A DNA stretch of 39,315 nt from a virus, in IMG/VR virus record IMGVR_UViG_3300030450_002007, positions 1-39,315 of that record; one strand, given 5' to 3'. Position numbers and translations under genes: made by a program. Below are positions 3 to 39,315 of this stretch, piece by piece (the stretch's first letter is position 1; the number at the start of each line of letters is the position of its first letter). The notes beneath the pieces were generated by a model. That model was not told the DNA's origin, did not search any database, and saw only the letters and a program-made list of their open reading frames with translations.

Positions 3-1772
3 GTTGCTAACAATACTTTATTTCTTGATGCAAATGAAACACGCATGAGATCTGCCGATGAGGGTGAAATTTTAGCTAAATTTATTGATAATGGAGCCGT
101 AGAACTCTATTACGACAACAGTAAAAAACTTGAGACAACAAGTGGTGGAGTAGATATTACTGGAACTATGATGGCTGACGGTATCCAAATACAAGATACC
201 CACAAAATAAATCTTGGAAATAGCCAAGACTTACAAATTTATCACGATGGCACGAATAACCTGATCGACTGTACAAATAGTAATCCATTATTTCTTCAAT
301 CCGATCTTCTTTATTTAATGAGAGAAGATGGAAATGAAACTATGGCAAAACTTACTGCTAATGGATCCGTAGAACTCTATTACGACAACAGTAAAAAGTT
401 TGAGACACATTCTGCTGGTGTGCTAGTTAGCGGAAATGTTTACTTAAATGATAATAATAGATTTATTGCTGGAACAAGTAATGACCTAAAAATTTATCAC
501 GATGGAATTAATAGTTATATCGAAGAGTCAGGTACTGGAGGTTTAGTTTTACGAACGAGTACTTTTGCTTTAAAAAATACAGCAAATAATGAAAATATTA
601 TTTCTGGATTTGAAAATGGCTCCGTAGAGCTATATTACGATAACGGAAAAAAATTAGAGACTACTTCAGATGGCATTACTGTAACTGGTAAGATTATGCC
701 TTCGGCTAATAATACTCATAATATAGGTTCTGCTAGTCTGAGATTCGTAAATCTCTTCATGTCAAACGCTATAGATTTGGGAGATGGTGCAACTGTTCAA
801 TTTGGAGATGACGATGATTTTAAAATTTTGCACGATGGAACTACCTCACTTATTAAAAGTATTAGTCACCCTTTAGCTTATTATTCAAATACTAGACATC
901 ATTTTCTTAATGGAGATGGTAGTGAGGCTATGGCTGTTTTTGTAGCTAATGGAGCCGTAGAGCTATATTACGACAACAGTAAAAAGTTTGAGACAAATAT
1001 ACAAGGCTGTTTAATGTTAACTAATTCAAAACTTTTAATGGGTGATAGTGGAGAATTACAAATTTATCACGATGGTAATGATTCTATTATTAAAAATACA
1101 ACAGGTGATCTTGAAATAAGAGGTGCTGGGACTGGTGTAGGTAATGTATTACTTAGACCTAAAACTGGTGAAAATGGAGTAATTGTAAAACCTGATAATG
1201 CCGTAGAGCTATATTACGACAACAGTAAAAAGTTTGAGACCAACAGTTTAGGCATTGGCATTGGAACTTCCGATACTATTATCTTTGACCATTCGGGTAC
1301 AGGAACAGATACAGGTGTTGTTTTAGGTACTGATGGTGGATTACAAATAGCTAGAAATAACGACATGCCAGCACTTCTTAACAGAAAAGGAACTGATGGT
1401 AATTTATTAGGAGTTTATAATGATGGTACTTTTGTTGGTGCGATTGCAGTTAGTGGTGCTACTACAGTTTATGCAACATCTTCTGACTATCGTTTAAAAG
1501 AAAATGTAACTGCAATATCTGATGGAATAACAAGACTAAAAACATTAAAACCTTATAGGTTTAACTTTAAATCAGACTCAACAAAAACAGTTGATGGTTT
1601 TTTTGCTCACGAAGTAACAGCAGTTCCAGAAGCTGTAACAGGAACGAAAGACGCTGTAAATTCTAATGGTGATATTGATCCACAAGGTTTAGATCAAAGT
1701 AAACTTGTACCTTTAATTGTAGCTGCTGTACAAGAACTTATAGGTAAAGTAGAAAAACTAGAAGCAGCATAA
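3..1772 (+). CDS. Tail fibre, C-terminal part, with peptidase S74 chaperone (5'-truncated at window edge)
   Basis: The frame is open from base 3, so this is the 3' part of a gene that starts outside. It is very probably the continuation of the fibre gene at 37270-39315, because the same repeats fill both pieces. About 470 residues are made of modules alternating an IYHDG motif with a VELYYDNSKK motif, as expected of a trimeric beta-structured fibre that contacts the host. The end is a peptidase S74 (intramolecular chaperone) domain: SSDYRLKEN, then a LKPYRFNF stretch and GFFAHEV. Counting from the ATG at 45, Ser480 and Lys485 have the S-D-x-R-x-K spacing of the self-cleaving dyad, so the chaperone is probably released after trimerisation. 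A short coiled tail (QELIGKVEKLEAA) follows. The first ATG at 45 is internal to the repeats and is not a real start. Confidence 0.9.
   Translation, partial: VANNTLFLDANETRMRSADEGEILAKFIDNGAVELYYDNSKKLETTSGGVDITGTMMADGIQIQDTHKINLGNSQDLQIYHDGTNNLIDCTNSNPLFLQSDLLYLMREDGNETMAKLTANGSVELYYDNSKKFETHSAGVLVSGNVYLNDNNRFIAGTSNDLKIYHDGINSYIEESGTGGLVLRTSTFALKNTANNENIISGFENGSVELYYDNGKKLETTSDGITVTGKIMPSANNTHNIGSASLRFVNLFMSNAIDLGDGATVQFGDDDDFKILHDGTTSLIKSISHPLAYYSNTRHHFLNGDGSEAMAVFVANGAVELYYDNSKKFETNIQGCLMLTNSKLLMGDSGELQIYHDGNDSIIKNTTGDLEIRGAGTGVGNVLLRPKTGENGVIVKPDNAVELYYDNSKKFETNSLGIGIGTSDTIIFDHSGTGTDTGVVLGTDGGLQIARNNDMPALLNRKGTDGNLLGVYNDGTFVGAIAVSGATTVYATSSDYRLKENVTAISDGITRLKTLKPYRFNFKSDSTKTVDGFFAHEVTAVPEAVTGTKDAVNSNGDIDPQGLDQSKLVPLIVAAVQELIGKVEKLEAA
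90..1245 (+). repeat. Fibre module repeats (VELYYDNSKK units), first block
   Basis: Five copies of a roughly 40-base unit encoding [AS]VELYYDN[SG]KK[LF]ET begin near 96, 366, 624, 954 and 1200. Units encoding [DE][LF]xI[YL]HDG lie between them. Several copies are nearly identical at the DNA level. Bases 387-488 match 38977-39078 with two differences, and 624-704 match 39235-39315 exactly. Confidence 0.9.
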
Positions 1773-2099: not shown

Positions 2100-2435
2100 A
2101 TGGCTATTACTTACACATGGGAAATCAACGGAACCGCTTGTAAAAGAGATGTTGCTGATGGTTACTTTACAAATGTTGTCTATCGAGTAAAAGGTATGGA
2201 CGGCACAGAAGAAAAAGCAAGACGTACAGGTGAAATAACTTACGTCAAACCTGAGTCATTGCCTTCTGGATTCATTGCCTTTGACGAATCCAAAAAAACA
2301 CCAGACAGTGCAACCATGATAACTTGGGTTAAAGATGCACTTGGAACGGATGAAGTTACTGCTTTAGAAGCTGGAATAAAAGCAGAAATTGATCTTAAAA
2401 ATACACCAGTACAAGCAACAGGTGTTGCCTTCTAA
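2100..2435 (+). CDS. Small conserved phage protein, copy A of a tandem pair
   Basis: This 111-residue soluble protein opens with alternating hydrophobic residues (MAITYTWEIN), followed by DGYFTNVVYRVKGMDG, which reads as a beta-rich fold, then KPESL and a helical VKDALGTDEV segment. It is related to the next gene: both share KPESL, VKxxLGTDxV and a late K-x-TP. Proteins of this look occur downstream of tail genes in marine myo- and siphophages, but their role is unknown to me. The next ATG lies two bases after this stop, so the two genes are cotranscribed. Confidence 0.75.
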   Translation: MAITYTWEINGTACKRDVADGYFTNVVYRVKGMDGTEEKARRTGEITYVKPESLPSGFIAFDESKKTPDSATMITWVKDALGTDEVTALEAGIKAEIDLKNTPVQATGVAF

Positions 2436-2437
2436 TT

Positions 2438-2740
2438 ATGGCAACTGTTACCTGGGCATTAGCTAACGTTGACTTTGATGTAGACGATGGCTTTTGTCAT
2501 ACTGCACACTGGACAGTAACTAGAGTTGATGGAGATTATTACGCATCATCTTATGGAAGCTGTGCGTTGACTAAACCAGAATCTTTAACAAGTAGAACTG
2601 ATTTAAAGACAGCAGATATTATTGCTGATGTAAAAGCTGTCCTTGGAACGGATAGAGTCGATGAGATTTTATCTGGGTTAACTTTAAAAATTAGTGAAGA
2701 AAAAACTCCTACGCAGGGAAGTTTCGTACCAGCTAGTTAA
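2438..2740 (+). CDS. Small conserved phage protein, copy B of a tandem pair
   Basis: This 100-residue protein has the same plan as its upstream neighbour: a beta-rich N-terminal half, then TKPESL, then VKAVLGTDRV, then KTPTQG near the end. The N-terminal halves have diverged strongly while the second half keeps its motifs, which fits an old tandem duplication. There is no membrane segment or signal peptide. The function is unknown. A roughly 125-base gap follows before the next gene. Confidence 0.75.
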   Translation: MATVTWALANVDFDVDDGFCHTAHWTVTRVDGDYYASSYGSCALTKPESLTSRTDLKTADIIADVKAVLGTDRVDEILSGLTLKISEEKTPTQGSFVPAS

Positions 2741-2865: not shown

Positions 2866-3084
2866 ATGTTTGCTCGTGTTTGTCAGATAGCTTCATTGTT
2901 GTCTCTATTTCTTACCTTGTCAATGTTAGGCGGTTCGTACTACGCTTTCCGCTTTGTAACCAGCGAACAATTTAAGGCAAGAGTAATGAATGAGGTTCTT
3001 GATAATGTTTCTGGCATGATGCCAAAAGTATTAGACCAAGAATTACCAAAAAAAACAGGTCCATCTATGCCGATAATAAAATAA
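2866..3084 (+). CDS. Small single-span membrane protein
   Basis: This 72-residue protein has a hydrophobic segment at about residues 7-28 (IASLLSLFLTLSML and following) and a polar, lysine-containing tail. It could be an inner-membrane protein with its tail in the cytoplasm or periplasm. A GGAGG at 2846-2850 lies about 15 bases before the ATG, which is too far for a good ribosome site. The stop codon directly abuts the ATG of the next tiny membrane gene, so they form a unit. A lysis role (holin or spanin-like) is possible because no other lysis gene is seen, but no motif supports it. Confidence 0.6.
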   Translation: MFARVCQIASLLSLFLTLSMLGGSYYAFRFVTSEQFKARVMNEVLDNVSGMMPKVLDQELPKKTGPSMPIIK

Positions 3085-3174
3085 ATGTTTTTTCCTATAT
3101 TTACTGTTTTTCTGGCAATTTTGATTTATTCAGCTTGTGCTTTTGCAATGTATAAACATTTTTCTGGTAAGTAA
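3085..3174 (+). CDS. 29-residue membrane peptide
   Basis: An ATG follows the previous stop with no gap and opens a 29-codon frame. It is essentially one hydrophobic helix (FPIFTVFLAILIYSACAFAM) with a short basic end (YKHFSGK). Its stop directly abuts the GTG of the next gene. Head-to-tail fit on both sides and a clean transmembrane profile argue that it is real despite its length. Function is unknown; a lysis or tail-tip membrane accessory role is speculative. Confidence 0.55.
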   Translation: MFFPIFTVFLAILIYSACAFAMYKHFSGK

Positions 3175-3813
3175 GTGTCTGAAATAAAGATACCTGAAAT
3201 AAAACTTCCTACTATTGATTTACCAGATGCACCATATTTTACAAAACCAAAACTAGAAGGCAACTTGCCTGGATGTTATTTATATCATCGTGATCTAGAA
3301 ACTACACGCAATCCATCATTGCTTATATCGGACAAACGTGGAACATATACAGTATGTCCAAATGGTGAAATCCCATCATATACTCCGATAAGATATGATC
3401 CTGCACAAATAATCAATACAGAGCCAGTGCCAGTAAATACTGCTCCAACTCAAAAAGATACAAACGTGGCACAACCAAAGCCAAAGAAAGATAAGAAAGT
3501 AGTATATGAACCTTGCCCTCCAGAAAAACCACAATTTATGAAAGGTGATTACAGAAATGACAAAAGGATTCAAAGATTTGTTTCTTACGAAAGAATAGAG
3601 ATAAATGGAGGTTTTGACTGTGTCGAGAACTGGGAAGAAGTACCATTCAGAGAAAGTTTTATTGGAACTCCTGAAGGGCTTATATCAACTACTGTGTTGG
3701 GTGTGGTTGCTGGTGGCTCTGCATTATTGGCTCCTCTGATAAAAAAGGTGATCTCTGAAATATTTAAAAAGATAAAAAAACATTTGACAAAGAAAAAAGA
3801 TACTACTTTGTGA
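3175..3813 (+). CDS. Proline-rich protein with C-terminal membrane helix and lysine tail
   Basis: A GTG start directly follows the previous stop. The 212-residue product begins with a repetitive E-I-K-x-P-E-I/T pattern and then has a central domain with four cysteines (34, 61, 114, 149). A hydrophobic glycine/alanine-rich segment at about 168-189 could cross a membrane. The C-terminal tail at 190-210 is extremely lysine-rich. The middle region at 85-110 is a proline/lysine linker. I do not recognise a family with certainty. Its position after two membrane peptides suggests a membrane-associated complex. Its last 11 bases overlap the convergent gene on the other strand. Confidence 0.7.
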   Translation: MSEIKIPEIKLPTIDLPDAPYFTKPKLEGNLPGCYLYHRDLETTRNPSLLISDKRGTYTVCPNGEIPSYTPIRYDPAQIINTEPVPVNTAPTQKDTNVAQPKPKKDKKVVYEPCPPEKPQFMKGDYRNDKRIQRFVSYERIEINGGFDCVENWEEVPFRESFIGTPEGLISTTVLGVVAGGSALLAPLIKKVISEIFKKIKKHLTKKKDTTL

Positions 3814-4543
3814 GATTATGAGTGTGCGGTAATACTTGATTGGGAATTGTTGTTAATACTACGTTTTTACACGCTACTGCATCTTCATTTATCAGCTTAA
3901 CACCAAGTTTAAACTGCTCGCTACATACCTTCATCCTCGCTAGATTTGCCTCTAAACGAGCCTTCTGCAATGCAAATTCCTGTCCTTTTATTTGGTTTTC
4001 AGCAGCTTTGACGCAAAGATCAGACCCTTCACCCAATGGTATCTGTAGGCTAACAGTAAATCCATAATTAAAATTATGAGTTGATTGTTCTATTCTTGGC
4101 TGTTCACTTATATATAAAATTTCTCCTGGGCTTATTAAATTACCATCTGCATCTTCTGCCAAATTGTAGATATTGGTTCTAGTCTTTGTAATTCTAGGTG
4201 TACTGTAGTTTTCTCCTTTAGTAACAAATGGAGTGAAAGCTAGTGTCGGTTGTTGACATTGAATATTTCCTCCATAAGTCATCGTTGGAAAGCCCCCATT
4301 TATAGTTTGATATCCGTTATTGATTACCGTTCCAGAACTTGATGCTGATGGGGAACTAACAGTATTTGCAAAGGTTTTGGGCGAATATAATAATAGAAGT
4401 AAACTTAATTTGAAAAAATTGACAAGCTTGTACTTTGACTTTCTGTATTGATTGTTCTTTGTACAGTGCTGGTTGCGTCTAAACCTGGAGCAAGAAAATT
4501 CTCCGTTATGCTGAACGCTTCGCCTGGGGTTTGGATTTCCCAT
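3803..4543 (-). CDS. Secreted protein with internal signal-like segment; start uncertain
   Basis: The open frame reaches 4576; the second ATG at 4543 gives 246 residues. A classic signal-like stretch, FFKLSLLLLLYSPKTFA, sits about 40-60 residues into the frame and is followed by an exported-looking domain. That domain has QCQQPTLAFTPF, a TNIYN segment, NFNYGFTVSLQIPLG, a helical KAAENQIKGQEFALQKARL region and Cys/Lys-rich helices. No ATG, GTG or TTG lies in frame just before the signal stretch, and the N-terminal part overlaps the preceding gene in another frame. The true product may therefore begin by frameshift or at a non-standard start. I have a memory of similar exported proteins in marine cyanophages but cannot confirm it here. 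Function is unknown. Confidence 0.6.
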   Translation of the reverse strand: MGNPNPRRSVQHNGEFSCSRFRRNQHCTKNNQYRKSKYKLVNFFKLSLLLLLYSPKTFANTVSSPSASSSGTVINNGYQTINGGFPTMTYGGNIQCQQPTLAFTPFVTKGENYSTPRITKTRTNIYNLAEDADGNLISPGEILYISEQPRIEQSTHNFNYGFTVSLQIPLGEGSDLCVKAAENQIKGQEFALQKARLEANLARMKVCSEQFKLGVKLINEDAVACKNVVLTTIPNQVLPHTHNLTK

Positions 4544-4833
4544 TGGGGTTTGGTCGGTAAATCTGGAGTTACCCATTTGAATGAAACTCCATTAACTGTC
4601 TGTGTGTTTGTATAGGTTGCATCAGGAGATATAACTGTTCCATCCTTAACTTTGATGTTATTGCCTTGCAAACTATATGAGTAACCTGTGCGGTAGTTTT
4701 CCGTAACAATAGTTTCCACAATAATAGTTTTACTAGAGCTAGAAGATTCCATCTGCCCTGTAGAGAACGATGGAGTAATTCCCCCTGCATAAGCACTAGG
4801 AATGCCAAATAAAAATATTATTAGCCATTTCAT
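4405..4833 (-). CDS. Secreted protein, shorter paralogue of the upstream gene
   Basis: This 142-residue protein has a signal peptide (MKWLIIFLFGIPSAYA, cleavage likely after AYA). A Ser/Thr-rich, probably beta-structured exterior domain follows. GEAFSITENFLAPG near residue 105 matches GDAWSVSESFIQGD in the neighbouring 176-residue protein, and both continue with a Thr/Val-rich stretch ending in xIF. This copy stops there, about 50 residues short of its paralogue, exactly where the next downstream frame takes over. Its ATG overlaps the stop of the upstream gene by one base. Function is unknown; it probably acts outside the cytoplasmic membrane. Confidence 0.75.
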   Translation of the reverse strand: MKWLIIFLFGIPSAYAGGITPSFSTGQMESSSSSKTIIVETIVTENYRTGYSYSLQGNNIKVKDGTVISPDATYTNTQTVNGVSFKWVTPDLPTKPQWEIQTPGEAFSITENFLAPGLDATSTVQRTINTESQSTSLSIFSN

Positions 4834-5363
4834 TAATCAATTTCAAGTTTTATTGTGCTAGACATCTGGGCTGTAACACCTGCTCCTGTAGCAGATAAGT
4901 TAACCGTCATTGCACCACCAGAATCCATTGTCATTGCAGTTGTACCAATGTCACCACCGCTTACAGTTGTTGTGTCTCCGAAAATAGGTAATGCTGGTAC
5001 AACACCATTAGTGACTGTTGTAGCTAAAAAACTTGTAGGGATAGAATCACCTTGTATGAAACTTTCACTTACAGACCATGCATCACCACTATTTGTAACT
5101 GCATAAGTAGTTGTATTATCTATTGTTGGAACGCCATTAGTTATTGCTGAATCTGTTAAATCTAAAGTTCCTATAGCATTTGCAGTATCACCTGCTGTTG
5201 GGGTGACATTTGTACCTGATGCAGAGAAGGTCGTACCCACCCGATTACTCGTTGAACTTGCTCCTAATGTACTGACCGAGACAACATTCTGTATTGAGTG
5301 ATTGATGTCAGCGTATGAAGCTGGCATACCAGCAAGCAGCAAAAGTGGTAAAAGTTTTTTCAT
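4833..5363 (-). CDS. Secreted Ser/Thr/Gly-rich protein
   Basis: This 176-residue protein starts with a textbook signal peptide (MKKLLPLLLLAGMPASYA). The mature part is rich in T, S, G, V and N with no cysteines, typical of secreted or surface beta proteins. It contains GDAWSVSESF, shared with the next gene, and ends with an alternating-hydrophobic segment (MSSTIKLEID). The gene overlaps the upstream holin-like gene by four bases and the downstream paralogue by one, so the minus-strand genes form one operon. The target is unknown. A role in modifying the infected cell envelope or superinfection exclusion would fit but is inference. Confidence 0.75.
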   Translation of the reverse strand: MKKLLPLLLLAGMPASYADINHSIQNVVSVSTLGASSTSNRVGTTFSASGTNVTPTAGDTANAIGTLDLTDSAITNGVPTIDNTTTYAVTNSGDAWSVSESFIQGDSIPTSFLATTVTNGVVPALPIFGDTTTVSGGDIGTTAMTMDSGGAMTVNLSATGAGVTAQMSSTIKLEID

Positions 5364-5629
5364 TTTTTTACAACCCCAACTTTAGAGTCTTTATTGTCAA
5401 CTATCTTAACATTATCATTAAGTTTCTTTTTGTCATTACCTTTTTTGACGTTTAGCCCAAATTGAGCACTCACTGCCGACAAAAGTCCAGCAGCGAAAGT
5501 TGTATCAATTTGCCTGGTAGGGTTTGGATTGAAGTACGACCAAGAAATAACCCCTAAACTCCAAAAAAGAATAATTAATTGCACCACATTGGCAATCAGG
5601 CTATTACCTTCTTTTTCTTGATCTTCCAT
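5360..5629 (-). CDS. Holin-like small membrane protein
   Basis: The likely start is the ATG at 5629, giving 89 residues (MEDQEKEGN...); an earlier ATG at 5704 would add a poor N-terminus. An acidic N-terminus is followed by a membrane helix at about 12-33 (VVQLIILFWSLGVISWSYF), a second apolar segment near 44-62 (TTFAAGLLSAVSAQFGL), and a lysine-rich C-terminal tail. Two helices with a charged tail is the usual plan of class II holins, so this is the best lysis candidate in the window. The call rests on topology only. It heads the minus-strand operon of secreted proteins. Confidence 0.6.
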   Translation of the reverse strand: MEDQEKEGNSLIANVVQLIILFWSLGVISWSYFNPNPTRQIDTTFAAGLLSAVSAQFGLNVKKGNDKKKLNDNVKIVDNKDSKVGVVKK

Positions 5630-5662
5630 AAGAAAAAAGCTGCTTGTGGGTATCTCTAAGCA

Positions 5663-5691
5663 TTGACTTCTGCTTAACAAACAGCTATGTG
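5663..5691 (+). promoter_or_regulatory. Possible sigma70-type promoter
   Basis: TTGACT, 17 bases, then TATGTG, lying between the divergent starts at 5629 (-) and 5740 (+). It would serve the two small plus genes. The -10 box is weak, so this is a candidate only. Confidence 0.3.
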
Positions 5692-5739
5692 CCAAATGTA
5701 GCAATTATTGTTATGTTTGGAAAGTAACACACATTTTTT

Positions 5740-5904
5740 ATGATTAAAATTTTAAAACCATTACTAATGACGTTTCTTACAACTACAACCGTAAAACGTT
5801 TAGTAGTTGATCTTTTACGTGCAATTTGTAAACAAACTTCAAATACTCTTGATGACCGTGCTGTAGATATATTGGAAAAACAATTATTTCCAGTAAGGCA
5901 ATGA
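5740..5904 (+). CDS. Small phage protein of 54 residues
   Basis: This ATG-started frame encodes 54 residues: a basic, moderately hydrophobic N-terminus (MIKILKPLLMTFLTTTTV), then VDLLRAICKQ and a helical TLDDRAVDILEKQL segment. Small phage proteins with this N(T)xDDxxVD pattern are common next to lysis or tail genes, but I cannot name a function. The stop overlaps the next ATG in an ATGA arrangement, indicating translational coupling. Confidence 0.65.
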   Translation: MIKILKPLLMTFLTTTTVKRLVVDLLRAICKQTSNTLDDRAVDILEKQLFPVRQ

Positions 5905-6182
5905 GAAAATTTTTAAATATTGAAATTGAAGAAGCACCTCCAGAACTTCAGCTTTCAGTTGAAATGAGATGCAGAGACATTATGCAAAGTGAGGATTATG
6001 ACAACATCAAAAGATATTGCACTCACTTAGTAAGACATCAAATGGATCAAGATGTTTTTTTAGCTTCAATGCTAGGAAGATTAATTGAACTAGAAGCTGC
6101 TTTAGTTAAAAAAAATTTAGCAGAAGAAAAAGAAGAGAAGAAAAATATTAATCCTATAAAAAAATTTTTTCGTATTGGTTAA
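5901..6182 (+). CDS. Small helical protein, unknown
   Basis: This 93-residue protein is coupled by ATGA overlap to the 54-residue gene before it. It is all-helical in appearance, with MRCRDIMQSEDYDNIKRYC near the middle and a Lys/Glu-rich end (KKNLAEEKEEKKN). There is no signal peptide or membrane segment. The last 29 bases overlap the end of the convergent minus-strand gene. A run of seven A followed by six T at 6158-6170 lies in the overlap and could help stop transcripts from both sides. Function is unknown. Confidence 0.7.
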   Translation: MRKFLNIEIEEAPPELQLSVEMRCRDIMQSEDYDNIKRYCTHLVRHQMDQDVFLASMLGRLIELEAALVKKNLAEEKEEKKNINPIKKFFRIG

Positions 6183-6438
6183 TTTCTTTTTCTGTAAAAT
6201 CACGAATTAGTAATTTATCAATTTTATCAACTTCGTAATTAAATTTAAGCACAGCAGTTCTTATATGTTCTGCAATCCAACGACCCTCTTCATAAACAAC
6301 TTGTGCTTTTCCATTTTCTTTTATATTTACATAATGATCTTGACCTTTAAGCTGAACATCTAAAAAGTTTCGTTCTAAATTTTTACGTCTAATATTTTTT
6401 AATCTTTGAAGTTTTACAGAAGAATGTACTTTTTTCAT
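6154..6438 (-). CDS. Small basic protein, last gene of the minus early operon
   Basis: This 94-residue protein has a strongly basic N-terminus (KLQRLKNIRRKNLER) that could bind nucleic acid, then a mixed segment (KAQVVYEEGRWIAEHIRTAV) and an acidic helical end. I do not recognise a family. The start overlaps the stop of the 51-residue gene upstream as ATGA. It is the promoter-distal gene of the operon that begins at 10192. Confidence 0.7.
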   Translation of the reverse strand: MKKVHSSVKLQRLKNIRRKNLERNFLDVQLKGQDHYVNIKENGKAQVVYEEGRWIAEHIRTAVLKFNYEVDKIDKLLIRDFTEKEINQYEKIFL

Positions 6439-6590
6439 TTTAGTTCTAGTGAAATATCAATCCAGCAAGGTTGCGGTTTTACTCCTGGAATCTGTTTATA
6501 AAAAGGATTAGTTATATATTCATAAGTTTTTTTACCATCAAAAAAAATTCTACCTATGTATGGATCAGATGGAAACTTTGGTTTTTTCAT
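6435..6590 (-). CDS. 51-residue protein, unknown
   Basis: The frame from the ATG at 6590 gives 51 residues: a KKPKFPSDPYIGRIFFDG start, an aromatic-rich centre (TYEYITNPFYK), and PCWIDISLEL at the end. Its stop overlaps the next ATG (ATGA), and it follows the T5orf172-like gene by only four bases. This coupling on both sides is the main support. Function is unknown. Confidence 0.6.
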   Translation of the reverse strand: MKKPKFPSDPYIGRIFFDGKKTYEYITNPFYKQIPGVKPQPCWIDISLELK

Positions 6591-6594
6591 AGAA

Positions 6595-7254
6595 TCATAT
6601 AACTACATTAATTTTATTGCCTAATTCTTTCATAATTACTTTTATATCATCTTTATTAAGATTCCTAAAAACTTCATATTTAAGAACTCTTTTATCTTTA
6701 AACATTTTATGAAGCTTTCTTTCTAATGATTTAAAGTCACTACGACGAGGACTAACAGCTAAAACTTTATCAGGTTGTTGTTCTTTTATTCTTATTTTTA
6801 TTCTTGAAGCTGTAGCTCGACCTATTTTCCAATAGCCTTGACTTTCAACAAAATAAACATGACCCCATTCTTTAGATTTTTCTGGCGCTTTATAACTTTC
6901 AGGAGGGGTCCAGGCATTTTCCCAACCTTCGTCAAGTGCTTCTTCATTCCATACTTCTTTACCTCTAACATATTTAACAAAGCCTTTTCTTATAAGCCAT
7001 AACATAGCTTCAAAGTCGCTAGACATTTCATATTGCCTTACGCCGTTTATAACATATTTTGTTTTTTTAAAAACAATTCCATATTTTTTATATATTGTTT
7101 CTTCGTCCATACCAAAAAACTTTTCATGTTCAGTTCTAGTATCTTCTTCATAATCACCAGTAAAAGTCCGAATAGTACCATCACCAGATGTGGTGACAGT
7201 ACAATTACCTTTGTTTGTATTAAAAACTAATTTAGGATAATCGGAATTAAGCAT
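6595..7254 (-). CDS. T5orf172 / GIY-YIG-like nuclease-domain protein
   Basis: The C-terminal 90 of the 219 residues match the T5orf172 (Mug113-like) branch of the GIY-YIG superfamily. Visible are GHVYFVES (131-138), YWKIGRA (141-147), an arginine region at 150-156, LERKLHKMF (177-185) with the glutamate and histidine usual for this family, and a final YEVFRNL where other members have E-W-F-x-L. The N-terminal 125 residues form a separate domain I do not recognise. Family members are often predicted DNA-binding or nicking proteins in phages. The gene overlaps the 48-residue gene upstream by 8 bases. A role in recombination or host DNA attack is inference. Confidence 0.8.
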   Translation of the reverse strand: MLNSDYPKLVFNTNKGNCTVTTSGDGTIRTFTGDYEEDTRTEHEKFFGMDEETIYKKYGIVFKKTKYVINGVRQYEMSSDFEAMLWLIRKGFVKYVRGKEVWNEEALDEGWENAWTPPESYKAPEKSKEWGHVYFVESQGYWKIGRATASRIKIRIKEQQPDKVLAVSPRRSDFKSLERKLHKMFKDKRVLKYEVFRNLNKDDIKVIMKELGNKINVVI

Positions 7255-7393
7255 TTGAATTAAATTTTGTTTTTAAATATTCAAGTTCAATTGCTTTTTT
7301 ATCTCGTAAATAATCTTCATTTGTCATAGTAGATTCCATTAAATATCGATCATTTAAACGAGACATAGCAGCGTCATATTCTTTTTGATTCAA
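7247..7393 (-). CDS. 48-residue protein with TTG start
   Basis: The frame opens at a TTG whose last two bases are shared with the TGA of the upstream SSB-like gene (TTGA overlap), preceded by GGAGG. It encodes 48 residues, strongly helical and charged (SRLNDRYLMES, RDKKAIELEYLK). Its stop lies inside the start of the next gene. An internal ATG at residue 10 is the alternative start. Function is unknown; tight coupling and the ribosome site make it credible. Confidence 0.6.
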   Translation of the reverse strand: MNQKEYDAAMSRLNDRYLMESTMTNEDYLRDKKAIELEYLKTKFNSNA

Positions 7394-7737
7394 AATGGAA
7401 TGTCCTCCGTTTCATCAACTAATTGGATTCTTCTAGGATTTATAGTTCCAAAGCATGAATCTTCATCATCTTCAAATGTATTTTTTCTACCATTTCCATT
7501 TAAATAAATACCTTCCACTTCTTCTCTTTCATTAGTTCGCATGTCATAAACTTTTCCAGTTTCAACTTTTGTTTTTGCAGCAGCTTTTATATGGTTACAA
7601 AATTCATCAATTGAGGTTAATGGAATAAACAAACGCATCTGTTTAGGATATTTTTGTTTGCTGTTTTCAAATGGATTATCTCTAACTGTAAAGTTAACAG
7701 GAAGAGTAAGTGCTGGATCAAATTCTTGATAAGCCAT
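7390..7737 (-). CDS. Single-stranded DNA-binding-like protein with DIPF tail
   Basis: The ATG at 7737 (MAYQEFDPAL) gives 115 residues; an earlier ATG at 7785 overlaps the upstream gene and is unlikely. The body is beta-rich, with RLFIPLTS and FGTINPRRIQLV strands plausible for an OB fold. The protein ends in an acidic tail, DETEDIPF, which is the signature end of bacterial-type SSB proteins used to dock repair enzymes. It sits directly beside the Rad52-like and RecE-like genes, as SSBs do in phage recombination modules. The body is too divergent for me to be certain of the fold. Confidence 0.65.
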   Translation of the reverse strand: MAYQEFDPALTLPVNFTVRDNPFENSKQKYPKQMRLFIPLTSIDEFCNHIKAAAKTKVETGKVYDMRTNEREEVEGIYLNGNGRKNTFEDDEDSCFGTINPRRIQLVDETEDIPF

Positions 7738-7742
7738 AATTT

Positions 7743-7973
7743 TTAAAATGAATGAATTGGTGTAATGTTGTGTGCTTCTTCCCAAGCCAAAACTTGATGA
7801 AGCTCGTAGCGAACTCGAGAATGACCGATCGCTAAATGATTTTTTGGTAATGTGTACCAGGTCGGACCTGTTGATTTACCAGCTTTAGTTTTATCTCGCC
7901 AACTTTTAATAGTTGCAGGTTTTAAACCATATCTATAAGCGAGGTCTTTTGTAGTTAAATACTGTTTATCCAT
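7743..7973 (-). CDS. Helix-turn-helix DNA-binding protein (excisionase/MerR-like)
   Basis: This 76-residue protein has LTTKDLAYRYGLKPATIKSW at residues 6-25, a winged HTH start typical of the HTH_17/excisionase-like fold, followed by RYELHQVLAWEEAHN. Its start overlaps the stop of the Rad52-like gene by one base. No integrase is visible, so a regulator or a replication accessory is more likely than a true excisionase. It could act on the divergent control region at 10193-10355; that is inference. Confidence 0.75.
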   Translation of the reverse strand: MDKQYLTTKDLAYRYGLKPATIKSWRDKTKAGKSTGPTWYTLPKNHLAIGHSRVRYELHQVLAWEEAHNITPIHSF

Positions 7974-8629
7974 TAGCTGTTAATTGCTTCAGTTAAATTT
8001 ACATATTTAGCTTCTAATAAATCAGTTAATTTACTATATTCTTCTTTAGTTATTTTCCCTTCATTTAATCTATCGTTAAAGGTATCAGTATAAGAATCAA
8101 GTTTTTTAAGTTGTTTACAATCTTCAATAGCTTTTTTAGCTAAAATAAAAGTTGTAGATTTTTGACTTACAGGTGGTTTTGATTCTTCTTTTTTCCATTT
8201 TTTATTTGAAGTATCAGCAGTTTTCCATGCTTTTTTACCGTCATAAAGACTAAGGCCAAATTGATAGCCAAATTGTCTTAAAGCACGTTTTTGTGCATCA
8301 CTTTCTGCTTCTTTAACTGCAGATTCGTGTTTATCGCCAATACCACCTTTTCGACCATGACCAGAGCCATAACCTTCTTTAACTACATTTCCAACAGTAA
8401 TTCTTACTTTGGCAATATAAGAAACGCATTTTATATCTTCTGAAACAAGATTAATTTCTAACGTTTCTGAGTTCCAACCATCAAAACCAAAAATACGATT
8501 GGCCGCGTCAATAGCTTTCCAGCTTTCAACATAAGGAACTTTATCCCCCCAACCACTTTCCCTTTCAGCTACATTTTCAAGCTTGATAGGTTGTTTTAAT
8601 GATTCAATTTGTTCTTTAGTAAAAGTCAT
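7973..8629 (-). CDS. Rad52/Rad22-family single-strand annealing protein
   Basis: This 218-residue protein matches the Rad52/22 double-strand-break-repair family: VPYVESWKAIDAANRIFGFD at 31-50 with GW just after, a glycine-rich GYGSGHGRKGG loop at 87-96, and KEAESDAQKRALRQFG at 106-121 followed by YQFGLSLYDGK. The C-terminal third is lysine-rich and helical. Such phage proteins anneal complementary single strands, working with a 5'-3' exonuclease. That partner is the next gene upstream, overlapping by four bases, and an SSB-like gene lies two genes downstream. Confidence 0.9.
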   Translation of the reverse strand: MTFTKEQIESLKQPIKLENVAERESGWGDKVPYVESWKAIDAANRIFGFDGWNSETLEINLVSEDIKCVSYIAKVRITVGNVVKEGYGSGHGRKGGIGDKHESAVKEAESDAQKRALRQFGYQFGLSLYDGKKAWKTADTSNKKWKKEESKPPVSQKSTTFILAKKAIEDCKQLKKLDSYTDTFNDRLNEGKITKEEYSKLTDLLEAKYVNLTEAINS

Positions 8630-9432
8630 TTTTTAAATGCCCAATAAGGTATGCTAATAGTTTTAATTCCTTCATTTGGCTTGTTATAGCCAGGCCAAAT
8701 TCCGGATTTTACGTAAGACTTTATTCTTTTTAACGATTCTTTTTGTACTTGTAAGCCTTCTTGTATTGTTTCCTCGTCAAGTTCATAAACACCAATATTA
8801 AAAGGGTAAACCTTTTCAACAGCTACAAATACAAACTTTTTAAGACCAATTCCTTCGCAGTAATGAGCAGCTTGAATATGGTATAAAAAATTTGCTACTG
8901 CACGAGAAAAAGTATCTTCATGAGCACCACCTTCAGAAGTTGTTTTTAAATCAATGATAGTATCACCATTAATCCAATCAGCTCTGCATTTAAGTGGTAA
9001 ATTTGTTTCTTTATGATCCCAGAAAAAACTTTGTTCAGGTGCACCATTAGCGAATAATTCTGAAGCTATTGGGTGATTTGCTACAGCGTCACATATATCA
9101 TTACAAAGAATTTTTTCTTCAAATGAAATAGCTTCAATACCTTTTTCTTCTAATTCCAGGATTTTTGCTTTACCTTCTTTAGTTCTTTTATTTTCAATTA
9201 CTTGATAAAAAGAATTAAATTCATTAGGTTCTAGAACTGCTTTATGCAGCATTGAGCCTAATTTAAGTGCAGGTGTTGGTGGTTTTGGTCTTGTATTGGG
9301 ATTAAATTTTTGGTCCCATAAAGTAAAACCATTGTATTTGATTTCCGTTTTAATGTCAGTTGCGGAATAATCAGAAGATGATCTATAAACTTTTTCAGTT
9401 ATAAATTCATCTTTAAATAAAGCGTTTGTCAT
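8626..9432 (-). CDS. RecE/YqaJ-type PD-(D/E)XK exonuclease
   Basis: I choose the ATG at 9432 (MTNALFKDEF, 268 residues) because the earlier one at 9471 overlaps the upstream gene by 59 bases. Visible nuclease motifs are LGSMLHKAVLEP (residues 58-69) with its histidine, CRADW (149-153), IIDLKTT (159-165) giving the D-x-K pair, and YHIQAAHY (184-191) with the usual glutamine and tyrosine. This is the plan of RecE / exonuclease VIII-like phage enzymes that resect double-stranded ends to 3' overhangs. It is paired with the Rad52-like annealing protein, as in RecET or lambda Red modules. Confidence 0.88.
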   Translation of the reverse strand: MTNALFKDEFITEKVYRSSSDYSATDIKTEIKYNGFTLWDQKFNPNTRPKPPTPALKLGSMLHKAVLEPNEFNSFYQVIENKRTKEGKAKILELEEKGIEAISFEEKILCNDICDAVANHPIASELFANGAPEQSFFWDHKETNLPLKCRADWINGDTIIDLKTTSEGGAHEDTFSRAVANFLYHIQAAHYCEGIGLKKFVFVAVEKVYPFNIGVYELDEETIQEGLQVQKESLKRIKSYVKSGIWPGYNKPNEGIKTISIPYWAFKK

Positions 9433-9622
9433 CTGTTGATGTATAAAGATTGATGTTGTGTATTTTTTCATGACTATTTACTGTTTTTTCTAATTTTTCT
9501 AATTTGAATTTTTGAATGTTCAGTAAATCGTTTTGAAGATTTAATTGTTTTTGTTGATTGTCAACAACACTAGAAAGTTCTTCAATTAAGAGTTTTAATT
9601 TAAGAAAATTTGCATCATTCAT
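9413..9622 (-). CDS. Small coiled-coil protein, unknown
   Basis: This 69-residue protein is almost entirely heptad-like (LKLKLLIEELSSVVDNQQKQ and onward, then NIQKFKLEKLEK), suggesting a dimeric or trimeric coil. It overlaps the exonuclease start by about 20 bases and is ATGA-coupled to the 50-residue gene upstream. That gene has the same character, so the pair could form a hetero-coil. No family is recognised. Confidence 0.65.
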   Translation of the reverse strand: MNDANFLKLKLLIEELSSVVDNQQKQLNLQNDLLNIQKFKLEKLEKTVNSHEKIHNINLYTSTDDKRFI

Positions 9623-9771
9623 TTTTCTGAAGTGTTAATTTTATTTTTAAGCTTAATAACATCATCAACTAGAATATCTATTTGAAGCTGTTGCCTTTGA
9701 ACAATTACTTTAAGTTCTTTAATTAAATTAAAAGATTGAACAAGAATTGTTTCTTTCATTTGTTCTTTCAT
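9619..9771 (-). CDS. 50-residue coiled-coil protein, unknown
   Basis: The frame from the ATG at 9771 encodes 50 residues with regular hydrophobic spacing (ILVQSFNLIKELKVIVQRQQ, then IDILVDDVIKLKNKI). It is ATGA-coupled on both sides, to the 43-residue gene upstream and the 69-residue gene downstream. Its likeness to the downstream coil suggests they act together or arose by duplication. Confidence 0.55.
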   Translation of the reverse strand: MKEQMKETILVQSFNLIKELKVIVQRQQLQIDILVDDVIKLKNKINTSEK

Positions 9772-9899
9772 TTATTTAAAGCTGCGCAAGCGCGTTGTAT
9801 TCCATTTGCACAATGGATTTGTGTACTTTTGTCTAAAGACGAAGAAAAGGCAGTGTAGCAAATAAAGCCCACTGCCATATAAAGAAATAGATTTTTCAT
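9768..9899 (-). CDS. 43-residue secreted or membrane peptide
   Basis: The frame from the ATG at 9899 encodes 43 residues: a hydrophobic leader (MKNLFLYMAVGFICYTAFSS) resembling a signal peptide, then a short polar part with two cysteines (HCANGIQRACAALNK) that could form a disulfide outside the membrane. Its start shares one base with the stop of the DUF2958 gene and its stop overlaps the next ATG. Function is unknown. Confidence 0.55.
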   Translation of the reverse strand: MKNLFLYMAVGFICYTAFSSSLDKSTQIHCANGIQRACAALNK

Positions 9900-10192
9900 T
9901 AAACTAAAGAGTTAATATTTACGGGATCAAATGACCAATCTCTTTCAACTGGTAATTTAAGTGGACCTCGTAAGGCTTTAATTTCATCAATCATGAAATA
10001 GCCAAACTCTTTAGCAAATCCGTCGACTAATCCCCAACACATACCATTTTCAGGGTTGTATTCGGCGACGTACCAAGTAAAGTTAGCATCTGGTGTAAAC
10101 CATTTAACAATAGCTTGGGGCTCCTTTTTGGTTTTAATTGAATGACCGAGAGGAGGTAACTTCTTAAGAAGTTCTTTTGTAAGTAAGTTCAT
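9899..10192 (-). CDS. DUF2958 protein, first gene of the minus early operon
   Basis: This 97-residue protein matches DUF2958 across its length: MNLLTKELLKKLPPLG at the start, IVKWFTPDANFTWYVAEYNP, CWGLVDGFAKEFGYFMIDEI, and VERDWSFDP near the end. The family is widespread on plasmids and phages and its biochemical role is not established. It is the promoter-proximal gene of a tightly packed operon running to 6154. A promoter-like -35/-10 pair lies 33-61 bases upstream of its ATG. Confidence 0.85.
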   Translation of the reverse strand: MNLLTKELLKKLPPLGHSIKTKKEPQAIVKWFTPDANFTWYVAEYNPENGMCWGLVDGFAKEFGYFMIDEIKALRGPLKLPVERDWSFDPVNINSLV

Positions 10193-37269: not shown

Positions 37270-39315
37270 ATGTCGATTCAAATTAAATTAAAGAATAGTG
37301 TTGTACAGGATAGTACTCCCAGTACATCAGATTTACCTGAAGTTGGAGAGATAGCACTTAACGCCAATATAAATAGTATTGGTGGTTTTATGCGAGCCAG
37401 TGATAATACGATTGTAAAAATATTTGGACCAGGAAGTTTATCAACACCTACTGCTACAACTACAGTTTCGGGTATATCTGAATTAGCTACTAATAGTGAG
37501 ACAACAACTGGAACTGCAACAAATAGAGTTGTAACCCCTGCTGGCTTAAATGCGGTAACAGTTGCAGAACGTACCACATCGAATACTAATTATGTAGCAA
37601 AAGCTGGTAGTACTTTAACTGGTGTATTGACCATGCCTAATGGTTCTAATTCAGCACCTGCAATAAATTTTGGAGATAGCGATAGCGGAATATTTGGTGG
37701 AACGAATACTGTTAGCTTGGCTGCTGGAGGAACAACAAGATTAACTGCTGATACTGGAGTAAGTGTTGTTGGTACGTTAGCTGTTCAAGGTGCTCTTACT
37801 ACCACACAAAATTTAACTATTGCGGAAAAAGTAATTCATTCTGGTGATACAGATACCTTTGTAAGTTTCCCTGCTAATAATACTGTTTCTGTTGAAACTG
37901 GAGGTAGTGAAGCACTAAGAGTTGATAGTTCACAACATTTATTAGTTGGATCAAGTACGAGTGTTGATGTTGGATCGGGTGCTGCTGCAATGCTTCAAGT
38001 TGAACATTCAGGAAGTAATCTTTCGGCTGCATTGTATAGCACTATAAATTCTACAGGGCCAGCAGGAGTCCTTGCTTTAGGACACGCTAGGGGAAGTGCA
38101 TCAGGTATTCTTTTAGATGATGATGTTATGGGTCAAATTCGTTTTGCTGGAGGCGATGGAGTTGATCTTGAAACAGTAGGAGTACAAATATCTGCTGAAG
38201 TAGATGGCACACCTGGAGCAAATGATATGCCAGGTCGTTTGGTATTTAGTACAACGGCTGATGGTGCTGCTTCTCCTACCGAAAGATTAAGAATAGACTC
38301 TTCTGGAAATGTACAAATACGAAACGATTCAGGAAAATTAGAATTTGGAACTTCTCAAGACCTACAAATTTTTCATGATGGAACAAATTCTCATGTTTAT
38401 AATGCAACAGGTGAATTTAGGGTTCGTGGTAATGATTTACGTTTAATGAACGCTGCTGGTAATGAGCATTACCTTATTGGATCAGCTAACGGAGCAGTGA
38501 ATTTATATTACGACAATAGTAAAAGGCTTGAGACTACTTCAATAGGAATAGATGTAACTGGTGAGATAAATGTAGGAGGTAATGACAGTAGATTTGCTGA
38601 AAATAATTTAAGGTTTTTATCAGCTGGTAATGCTTTTATAGATCATGGTACAGTCGGTCAAGATTTCATTTTTAGAACTTCTCAGAACTCTGCTGTTGAT
38701 ACAACTGCTTTAACTATAGATGCTTCTGATGCTGGAACTGCAATATTCAATCATGATGTAAAAATTCCAGACAACGGAAAATTTGTAGCTGGTGCGAGCA
38801 ATGACCTAGAAATTTTTCATAGTGGAAATCATTCTCAAATTGTACATAGTGGAACAGGCAATGTATTTCTTGATTCGATTGGAGGGAATGTAGAATTAAG
38901 AGCAGGGAATAATGCTGGTGGTGTCCATAGTTCTGTAGTTTGTAATTTAGATGCAGGTGTAGAGCTTTATTTTAATAACAGTAAAAAGTTTGAGACACAT
39001 TCTGCTGGTGTGTTAGTTAGCGGAAATGTTTACTTAAATGACAATAATAGATTTATTGCTGGAACAAGTAATGACCTACAACTTTATCACGATGGTAATA
39101 ATCATATAAAGACTTCTAGTGGATATTTAAGTGTAGAAGTTGCTAACAATACTTTATTTCTTGATGCAAATGAAACACGCATGAGATCTGCCGATGAGGG
39201 TGAAATTTTAGCTAGATTTATTGATGATGGAGCAGTAGAGCTATATTACGATAACGGAAAAAAATTAGAGACTACTTCAGATGGCATTACTGTAACTGGT
39301 AAGATTATGCCTTCG
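37270..39315 (+). CDS. Tail fibre N-terminal part, open at window edge
   Basis: The ATG at 37270 follows an AGGTAAACT leader. The 682 codons stay open to the last base. The N-terminus (SIQIKLKNSVVQDSTPSTSD, then LPEVGEIALN) is the type that docks fibres to the tail. A TTTVSGISELATNSETTTGT segment, common in tail-collar-like proteins, follows, then PAINFGDSDSGIFGG and ERLRIDSSGNVQI. The rest is IYHDG/YYDNSKK modules matching those at 1-1250. Joining base 39315 directly to base 1 would meet a stop at 46-48, so a piece of 1 mod 3 length seems to be missing between them. Confidence 0.88.
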   Translation, partial: MSIQIKLKNSVVQDSTPSTSDLPEVGEIALNANINSIGGFMRASDNTIVKIFGPGSLSTPTATTTVSGISELATNSETTTGTATNRVVTPAGLNAVTVAERTTSNTNYVAKAGSTLTGVLTMPNGSNSAPAINFGDSDSGIFGGTNTVSLAAGGTTRLTADTGVSVVGTLAVQGALTTTQNLTIAEKVIHSGDTDTFVSFPANNTVSVETGGSEALRVDSSQHLLVGSSTSVDVGSGAAAMLQVEHSGSNLSAALYSTINSTGPAGVLALGHARGSASGILLDDDVMGQIRFAGGDGVDLETVGVQISAEVDGTPGANDMPGRLVFSTTADGAASPTERLRIDSSGNVQIRNDSGKLEFGTSQDLQIFHDGTNSHVYNATGEFRVRGNDLRLMNAAGNEHYLIGSANGAVNLYYDNSKRLETTSIGIDVTGEINVGGNDSRFAENNLRFLSAGNAFIDHGTVGQDFIFRTSQNSAVDTTALTIDASDAGTAIFNHDVKIPDNGKFVAGASNDLEIFHSGNHSQIVHSGTGNVFLDSIGGNVELRAGNNAGGVHSSVVCNLDAGVELYFNNSKKFETHSAGVLVSGNVYLNDNNRFIAGTSNDLQLYHDGNNHIKTSSGYLSVEVANNTLFLDANETRMRSADEGEILARFIDDGAVELYYDNGKKLETTSDGITVTGKIMPS
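38345..39315 (+). repeat. Fibre module repeats, second block
   Basis: IYHDG-type units lie near 38348, 38808 and 39076, and YYDNSKK-type units near 38490, 38957 and 39235. Bases 39137-39214 equal 1-78 exactly, and 39235-39315 equal 624-704 exactly. Confidence 0.9.

Follow-up and report, generated by a model that had tools for sequence, protein, structure and literature searches.

The window analysed here is a stretch of viral DNA of 39,315 nucleotides (positions 1 to 39,315 of IMG/VR record IMGVR_UViG_3300030450_002007). Between positions 3803 and 5629 it carries four minus-strand ORFs, located where a preliminary description of the sequence had placed them, and these are real genes because all four match named protein families. 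They encode: (i) a small holin-like membrane protein of the DUF6450 family (5360..5629, 89 aa; matches to phrog_721/21865 and DUF6450), (ii) a gp167-like exported protein (4833..5363, 176 aa; phrog_564, 5e-28), (iii) its paralogue, a gp166-like exported protein (4405..4833, 142 aa; phrog_650, 8e-32, and DUF6322, 3e-24) and (iv) a gp165-like exported protein (3803..4576, 257 aa; phrog_848/1755, with a phrog_848 match of 1e-49). Their counterparts in Syn9 are gp161, gp167, gp166 and gp165, respectively. The preliminary description viewed them as an island of what look like accessory genes, cut into the late region. Instead, they are half of one convergent cassette, whose other half (2866-3813, plus strand) encodes a gp162-like protein with a single TM segment (phrog_568, labelled 'plasmid stability'; 2866..3084) and a gp164-like proline-rich protein (phrog_570; 3175..3813). 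The gp164-like and gp165 genes overlap tail to tail by 11 nt. The convergent gp165/gp164 layout was found in all 225 viral-contig loci showing both halves, often with overlapping 3' ends, and the cassette is conserved, together with its plus-strand partners, in hundreds of cyanophages.

On the left, tandem DUF7936 paralogues (2100..2740, plus strand) occupy the interval between tail fibre and cassette, outside the cassette itself. In many cyanophages, tail fibre genes are followed by DUF7936 and then by a lysis gene or the cassette, this family marking the swap site. On the right, a gene encoding a small phrog_2738 protein (5740..5904, plus strand) is a probable associate of the cassette, which it also adjoins in the podovirus P-SCSP1a. 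It is followed by the right anchor (5901..6182, plus strand), whose homologue in phage KBS-S-2A lies directly after the endolysin (7628-7801). A minus-strand recombination/replication block comes next (6154-10192). The divergent intergenic region (5630..5739) is a candidate control region: it contains two DNA blocks, GTTACTTTCCAAACATA, common to the siphovirus P-HS2, and TTTGGCACATAGCTG, common to the podovirus P-SCSP1a, that may be control elements. Nothing in this region matched Rfam, and promoter and terminator scans did no better than with shuffled sequence. Both ends of the window (45-1772 and 37270-39315) lie in tail-fibre-like genes matching the same PHROGs (e.g. phrog_19195), which suggests that the contig broke in repetitive tail-fibre sequence.

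The three consecutive products previously noticed to have signal or signal-like segments do carry readable ones. Two of them read MKKLLPLLLLAGMPASYA-DI and MKWLIIFLFGIPSAYA-GG (the hyphen marks the cleavage position), and the 257-aa gp165-like ORF contains an internal one, LSLLLLLYSPKTFA-NT, ending in SPKTFA-NT. All end in A-x-A, and direct reading found no lipobox cysteine at the cleavage region of any of the three. These segments support the export of gp165, gp166 and gp167, with Sec signal peptides on gp166 and gp167. In gp165, a basic extension of about 55 residues precedes the signal segment. The hydrophobic core of this segment is short and leads into AxA; hydropathy gave no TM segment of 19 residues, and the model has one long helix. 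Relatives share the cleavage pattern (SPSYA-ET, TPAYA-ED, SPVLA-EG). Mature gp165 has four invariant cysteines and a C-terminal PHxH. The paralogy proposed for two of the three exported proteins holds for the products of 4405 and 4833, which both match phrog_564. AF2 models of mature gp165 (pLDDT 67) and mature gp166 (pLDDT 76) consist of a long beta-hairpin plus a helix and of two strands of about 23 residues each, respectively. Profile searches and structure prediction yielded named families and no recognised lytic fold. PDB sequence searches gave no significant match, nor did fold searches with the long-hairpin models (best Foldseek E-values of 0.14 and 0.014, VIA Z at most 4.5); the weak likenesses were to ring or pore stems (phage collar proteins, lysenin, aerolysin). 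The long paired strands of these models are only a hint of an oligomeric beta structure.

The small membrane protein at the head of the minus-strand genes, described beforehand as having two helices, has an acidic N-terminus, two hydrophobic segments, the first strong and the other weaker, and a Lys-rich C-terminus; its homologue in P-SSP7 is annotated with two TM regions. The gp164-like proteins carry a C-terminal hydrophobic segment followed by a cationic amphipathic helix.

The gp166 and gp165 genes overlap at 4405..4576 in different reading frames. The gp165 ATG sits in the codon of a conserved tryptophan of gp166 (Trp87), and in 244 of 246 loci the gp165 frame begins within gp166, shifted by -1 relative to it. 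In both the window group and the Syn9 group, a Shine-Dalgarno-like GGAG motif (4587..4590 in the window, minus strand) is kept 9-10 nt upstream of this ATG. In the final 45 codons of gp166, T-ending codons that would create a stop in the gp165 frame were never found at at-risk sites (0 of 1,680, counted in three groups that are diverged, with gp166 about 35-40% identical between groups, and made of related sequences), whereas T-ending codons account for 35-43% at harmless sites of the same stretch and 46-56% at equivalent sites upstream in gp166. Given this avoidance of stops and the placing of the ATG and GGAG, the long basic extension ahead of the gp165 signal segment is translated. However, synonymous diversity of gp166 is no lower in the overlap (0.75 vs 0.69 of expectation), so that openness alone is shown for the extension and not a conserved peptide sequence; we thus dropped the idea of protection at the sequence level. 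The distant gp165 alignment contained too few conserved stretches for a scan. For the main groups, we rejected programmed -1 frameshifting at the gp166 end as the source of gp165: a shift so late would not require the -1 frame to be free of stops throughout the final 45 codons of gp166, as it is.

Within the window clade, gp166 codons ~8-87 (4569-4808 in the window, minus strand) also avoid stops in the +1 frame, which ends at the gp165 start: stop-making codons represent 1-4%, compared with 46-98% xTA at safe sites. This was not seen in the Syn9 group, and the few sites make it weakly indicative of a possible extra small ORF or translational-coupling leader. In P-HS2 (L001 4960-5000), gp165 itself is frame-shifted at a T-run beside the gp166 stop; about 78 close environmental relatives have an intact -1 frame, the shift in P-HS2 being an indel or a sequencing difference.

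A similar gene set was described by Sullivan et al. 2010 (PMC3037559) as a 'mobile hypothetical cluster' of five hypothetical genes, often accompanied by a 'plasmid stability' protein. It comprises T4-GCs 218, 219, 234, 235 and 237 plus the plasmid-stability protein and was found in 15 of 16 cyanomyoviruses, S-PM2 being the exception, with no function assigned (PMC3037559). We equate it with the cassette through its phrog_568 member and its distribution: in agreement with Sullivan 2010, gp165 was found in Syn9 and in nine of nine other cyanomyoviruses and not in S-PM2. That description covered T4-like phages only, proposed no function and did not report the internal gene start. New here are the presence of the cassette in siphoviruses (the window and P-HS2) and in the T7-like podoviruses S-RIP1, P-SCSP1a and P-SSP7, the endolysin swap in KBS-S-2A, the near-exclusion between cassette and endolysin and the start of gp165 inside gp166. 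No paper naming this cassette was found in the literature on lysis in marine cyanophages.

Looking for the genes in related marine phages, as had been proposed, thus revealed them in cyanomyoviruses, siphoviruses and podoviruses, and the cassette is carried by most ocean cyanobacterial viruses, with all three tail types. By tblastn, the gp166 product matched 438 phage records, nearly all of them from phages of Synechococcus or Prochlorococcus or from marine phage sequence that is uncultured, and the four minus-strand families are confined to cyanophages. The gp166, gp165 and DUF6450 genes occur together in 8 of 11 records and are jointly absent from the other three. A pattern scan of the genomes of 84,980 species for a host origin matched six contigs only, some of which may be phage sequence: most are MAGs, and the others include a single-cell genome of Prochlorococcus and an assembly of Nonlabens. 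In S-RIP1 and P-SSP7 the cassette fills the interval between the tail-fibre and small-terminase (TerS) genes. T7 has its lysis genes 17.5 (holin) and 18.5/18.7 (spanin) between tail fibre and TerS. Another family, phrog_12220 (L086 6784-7017, L090 36392-36652), adjoins TerS in S-RIP1 and lies near it in the cassette-less Syn5; with its hydrophobic N-terminus, likely coiled coil and weak match to a 'lipoprotein' PHROG, it is possibly a separate lysis accessory.

The nearest annotated relative of the window is KBS-S-2A (64% identity for the portal, 60% for the major capsid protein and 71% for the major tail protein). In this phage, DUF7936 and the 5901 homologue enclose an endolysin (phrog_181, 1e-37), and six profile searches found no cassette genes. 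Conversely, neither PHROGs nor Pfam revealed a lytic enzyme anywhere in the window, as the preliminary description had noted. Among the 59 DUF7936-centred environmental loci with enough sequence, 38 have an endolysin downstream and none has the cassette. Pooling the DUF7936-centred loci with the cassette-centred loci that contain DUF7936 gave 116 viral loci, with the cassette only in 36, an endolysin only in 42, both in none and neither in 38 (Fisher 2e-9, a value that overstates independence, the loci being related within groups and gathered by queries). No endolysin was found in any of 240 cassette loci.

The same tendency appears at the scale of whole phages: a stand-alone PF00959 lysozyme is absent from all 17 marine cassette phages examined. 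In the first isolate panel, PF00959 was lacking in eight of eight cassette phages and present in the cassette-less S-PM2. In a second set of nine cyanomyoviruses, gp165 is present throughout and PF00959 is absent from eight; in the ninth, P-RSM4, this domain lies solely within a 935-codon frame, taken to encode a virion protein. Of the nine cyanophages with a lysozyme, six have none of the three cassette families that were tested. S-CAM7, which has the lysozyme, lacks gp166 and DUF6450 and retains a decayed gp165 relic with three stops (KU686212 31410-31868). The cassette-less P-SS2 also has a lysozyme (PMC2784084). Syn5 has neither cassette nor PF00959 lysozyme, and a search for PF08291 endolysins was negative in 11 of 11 phages. 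Two related phages from fresh water, DSL-LC02 and DSL-LC03, combine a lysozyme with the cassette, which in DSL-LC03 lies 2-5 kb from a C39-type and a PF00959 endolysin; therefore, the cassette need not replace an endolysin.

Known lysis systems share only some features with the cassette. Phage endolysins (PF00959 lysozyme, GH19-type phrog_181) occupy the same locus, from DUF7936 to the 5901 homologue, but Pfam, PHROGs and PDB sequence searches detected no muralytic domain in any cassette protein. Like two-component spanins (lambda Rz/Rz1, T7 gp18.5/18.7), the cassette comprises exported proteins encoded by overlapping genes nested in different frames and, in T7-like phages, lies at the same genome position. 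However, it lacks the lipobox, and thus the lipoprotein signal of an o-spanin, no sequence relation was found, and gp165 seems to have a cleavable-type signal in place of a full TM anchor. The DUF6450 protein resembles holins in being small, with hydrophobic segments (at least one TM segment) and a charged C-terminus, but has no family-level match to any named holin.

From these comparisons, we moderately favour the view that 3803-5629 encodes the exported part of a mobile cassette for host lysis (progeny release), in which a holin-like DUF6450 protein and exported beta-rich proteins would breach the envelope. The cassette is probably the means of bursting the host because, at the corresponding place in the genome, related viruses have an enzyme that cuts the cell wall. 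This reading relies on the orthotopic swap in KBS-S-2A, the near-exclusion between cassette and endolysins, the location of T7 lysis genes, the linkage in DSL-LC03 and the joint presence or absence of gp166, gp165 and DUF6450; these comparative lines point to host lysis or progeny release over superinfection exclusion or virion assembly. Among the three roles first suggested, envelope remodelling, exclusion of other phages and aid in release, the hint at lysis thus appears to be the best supported, and it is the idea of accessory genes merely inserted in the late region that has to be abandoned. Late in infection, DUF6450 would play a holin-like part in the inner membrane. The same membrane would hold gp164, which is Pro-rich and has a hydrophobic segment and a tail that is cationic and amphipathic. 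The Sec-exported, disulfide-capable, beta-rich gp165-167 would come together in the periplasm or outer membrane, and their assembly would breach the envelope. Most ocean cyanophages would then have the cassette in place of a recognisable endolysin-based system. Counting against lysis are the lack of a recognised lytic fold, the non-significant structure matches, the presence of both systems in DSL-LC02 and DSL-LC03, the absence of cassette and PF00959 lysozyme alike from Syn5, and the fact that accessory genes of many kinds tend to gather in the region following the tail fibres.

No peptidoglycan-cutting activity was identified among the proteins of cassette phages. It is conceivable, if rather doubtful, that marine cyanophages, whatever their tail morphology among the three, have in common a lysis system with no recognisable endolysin or spanin, a disulfide-bearing, beta-rich exported complex breaching the envelope. 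An unlikely variant limits the cassette to the holin-like and outer-membrane (spanin-equivalent) steps and supposes that these phages have, in addition, an endolysin too divergent to be recognised; the endolysins retained beside an intact cassette in DSL-LC02/03 and the lack of a catalytic domain in the cassette proteins would fit it, but no stand-alone PF00959 occurs in the 17 marine cassette phages, no lytic domain occurs in the window, and the endolysin of KBS-S-2A replaces the entire cassette. Superinfection exclusion or envelope remodelling, with exported proteins coating or changing the surface of the infected cell to block other phages, seems quite improbable: it would suit exported, mobile and cyanophage-specific proteins whose genes adjoin receptor-binding tail fibres and vary among clades, but fails to predict the alternation with endolysins, the DSL-LC03 linkage or the lysis position in podoviruses. 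Least probable are minor virion or tail-fibre accessory proteins, which the adjacent tail-fibre and DUF7936 genes could evoke: the products have Sec signal peptides, no strong match to virion components and no virion label was obtained from PHROGs or Pfam, and in S-TIM5 the neighbouring genes are annotated as virion structural, the cassette genes not.

The host-lysis reading matters since lysis of Prochlorococcus and marine Synechococcus by viruses drives ocean carbon release, and the genomes of these viruses do not reveal how the hosts are broken open. The cassette offers a candidate of five to seven genes that is carried by tractable phages (P-SSP7, Syn9) and for which the KBS-S-2A endolysin is a natural replacement, which makes it directly testable. 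It also gives a functional hypothesis for DUF6322 and DUF6450 and for several PHROGs to which no function had been assigned. Were the shared beta-rich system real, it would represent a lysis mechanism beyond the holin, endolysin, spanin and disruptin types.
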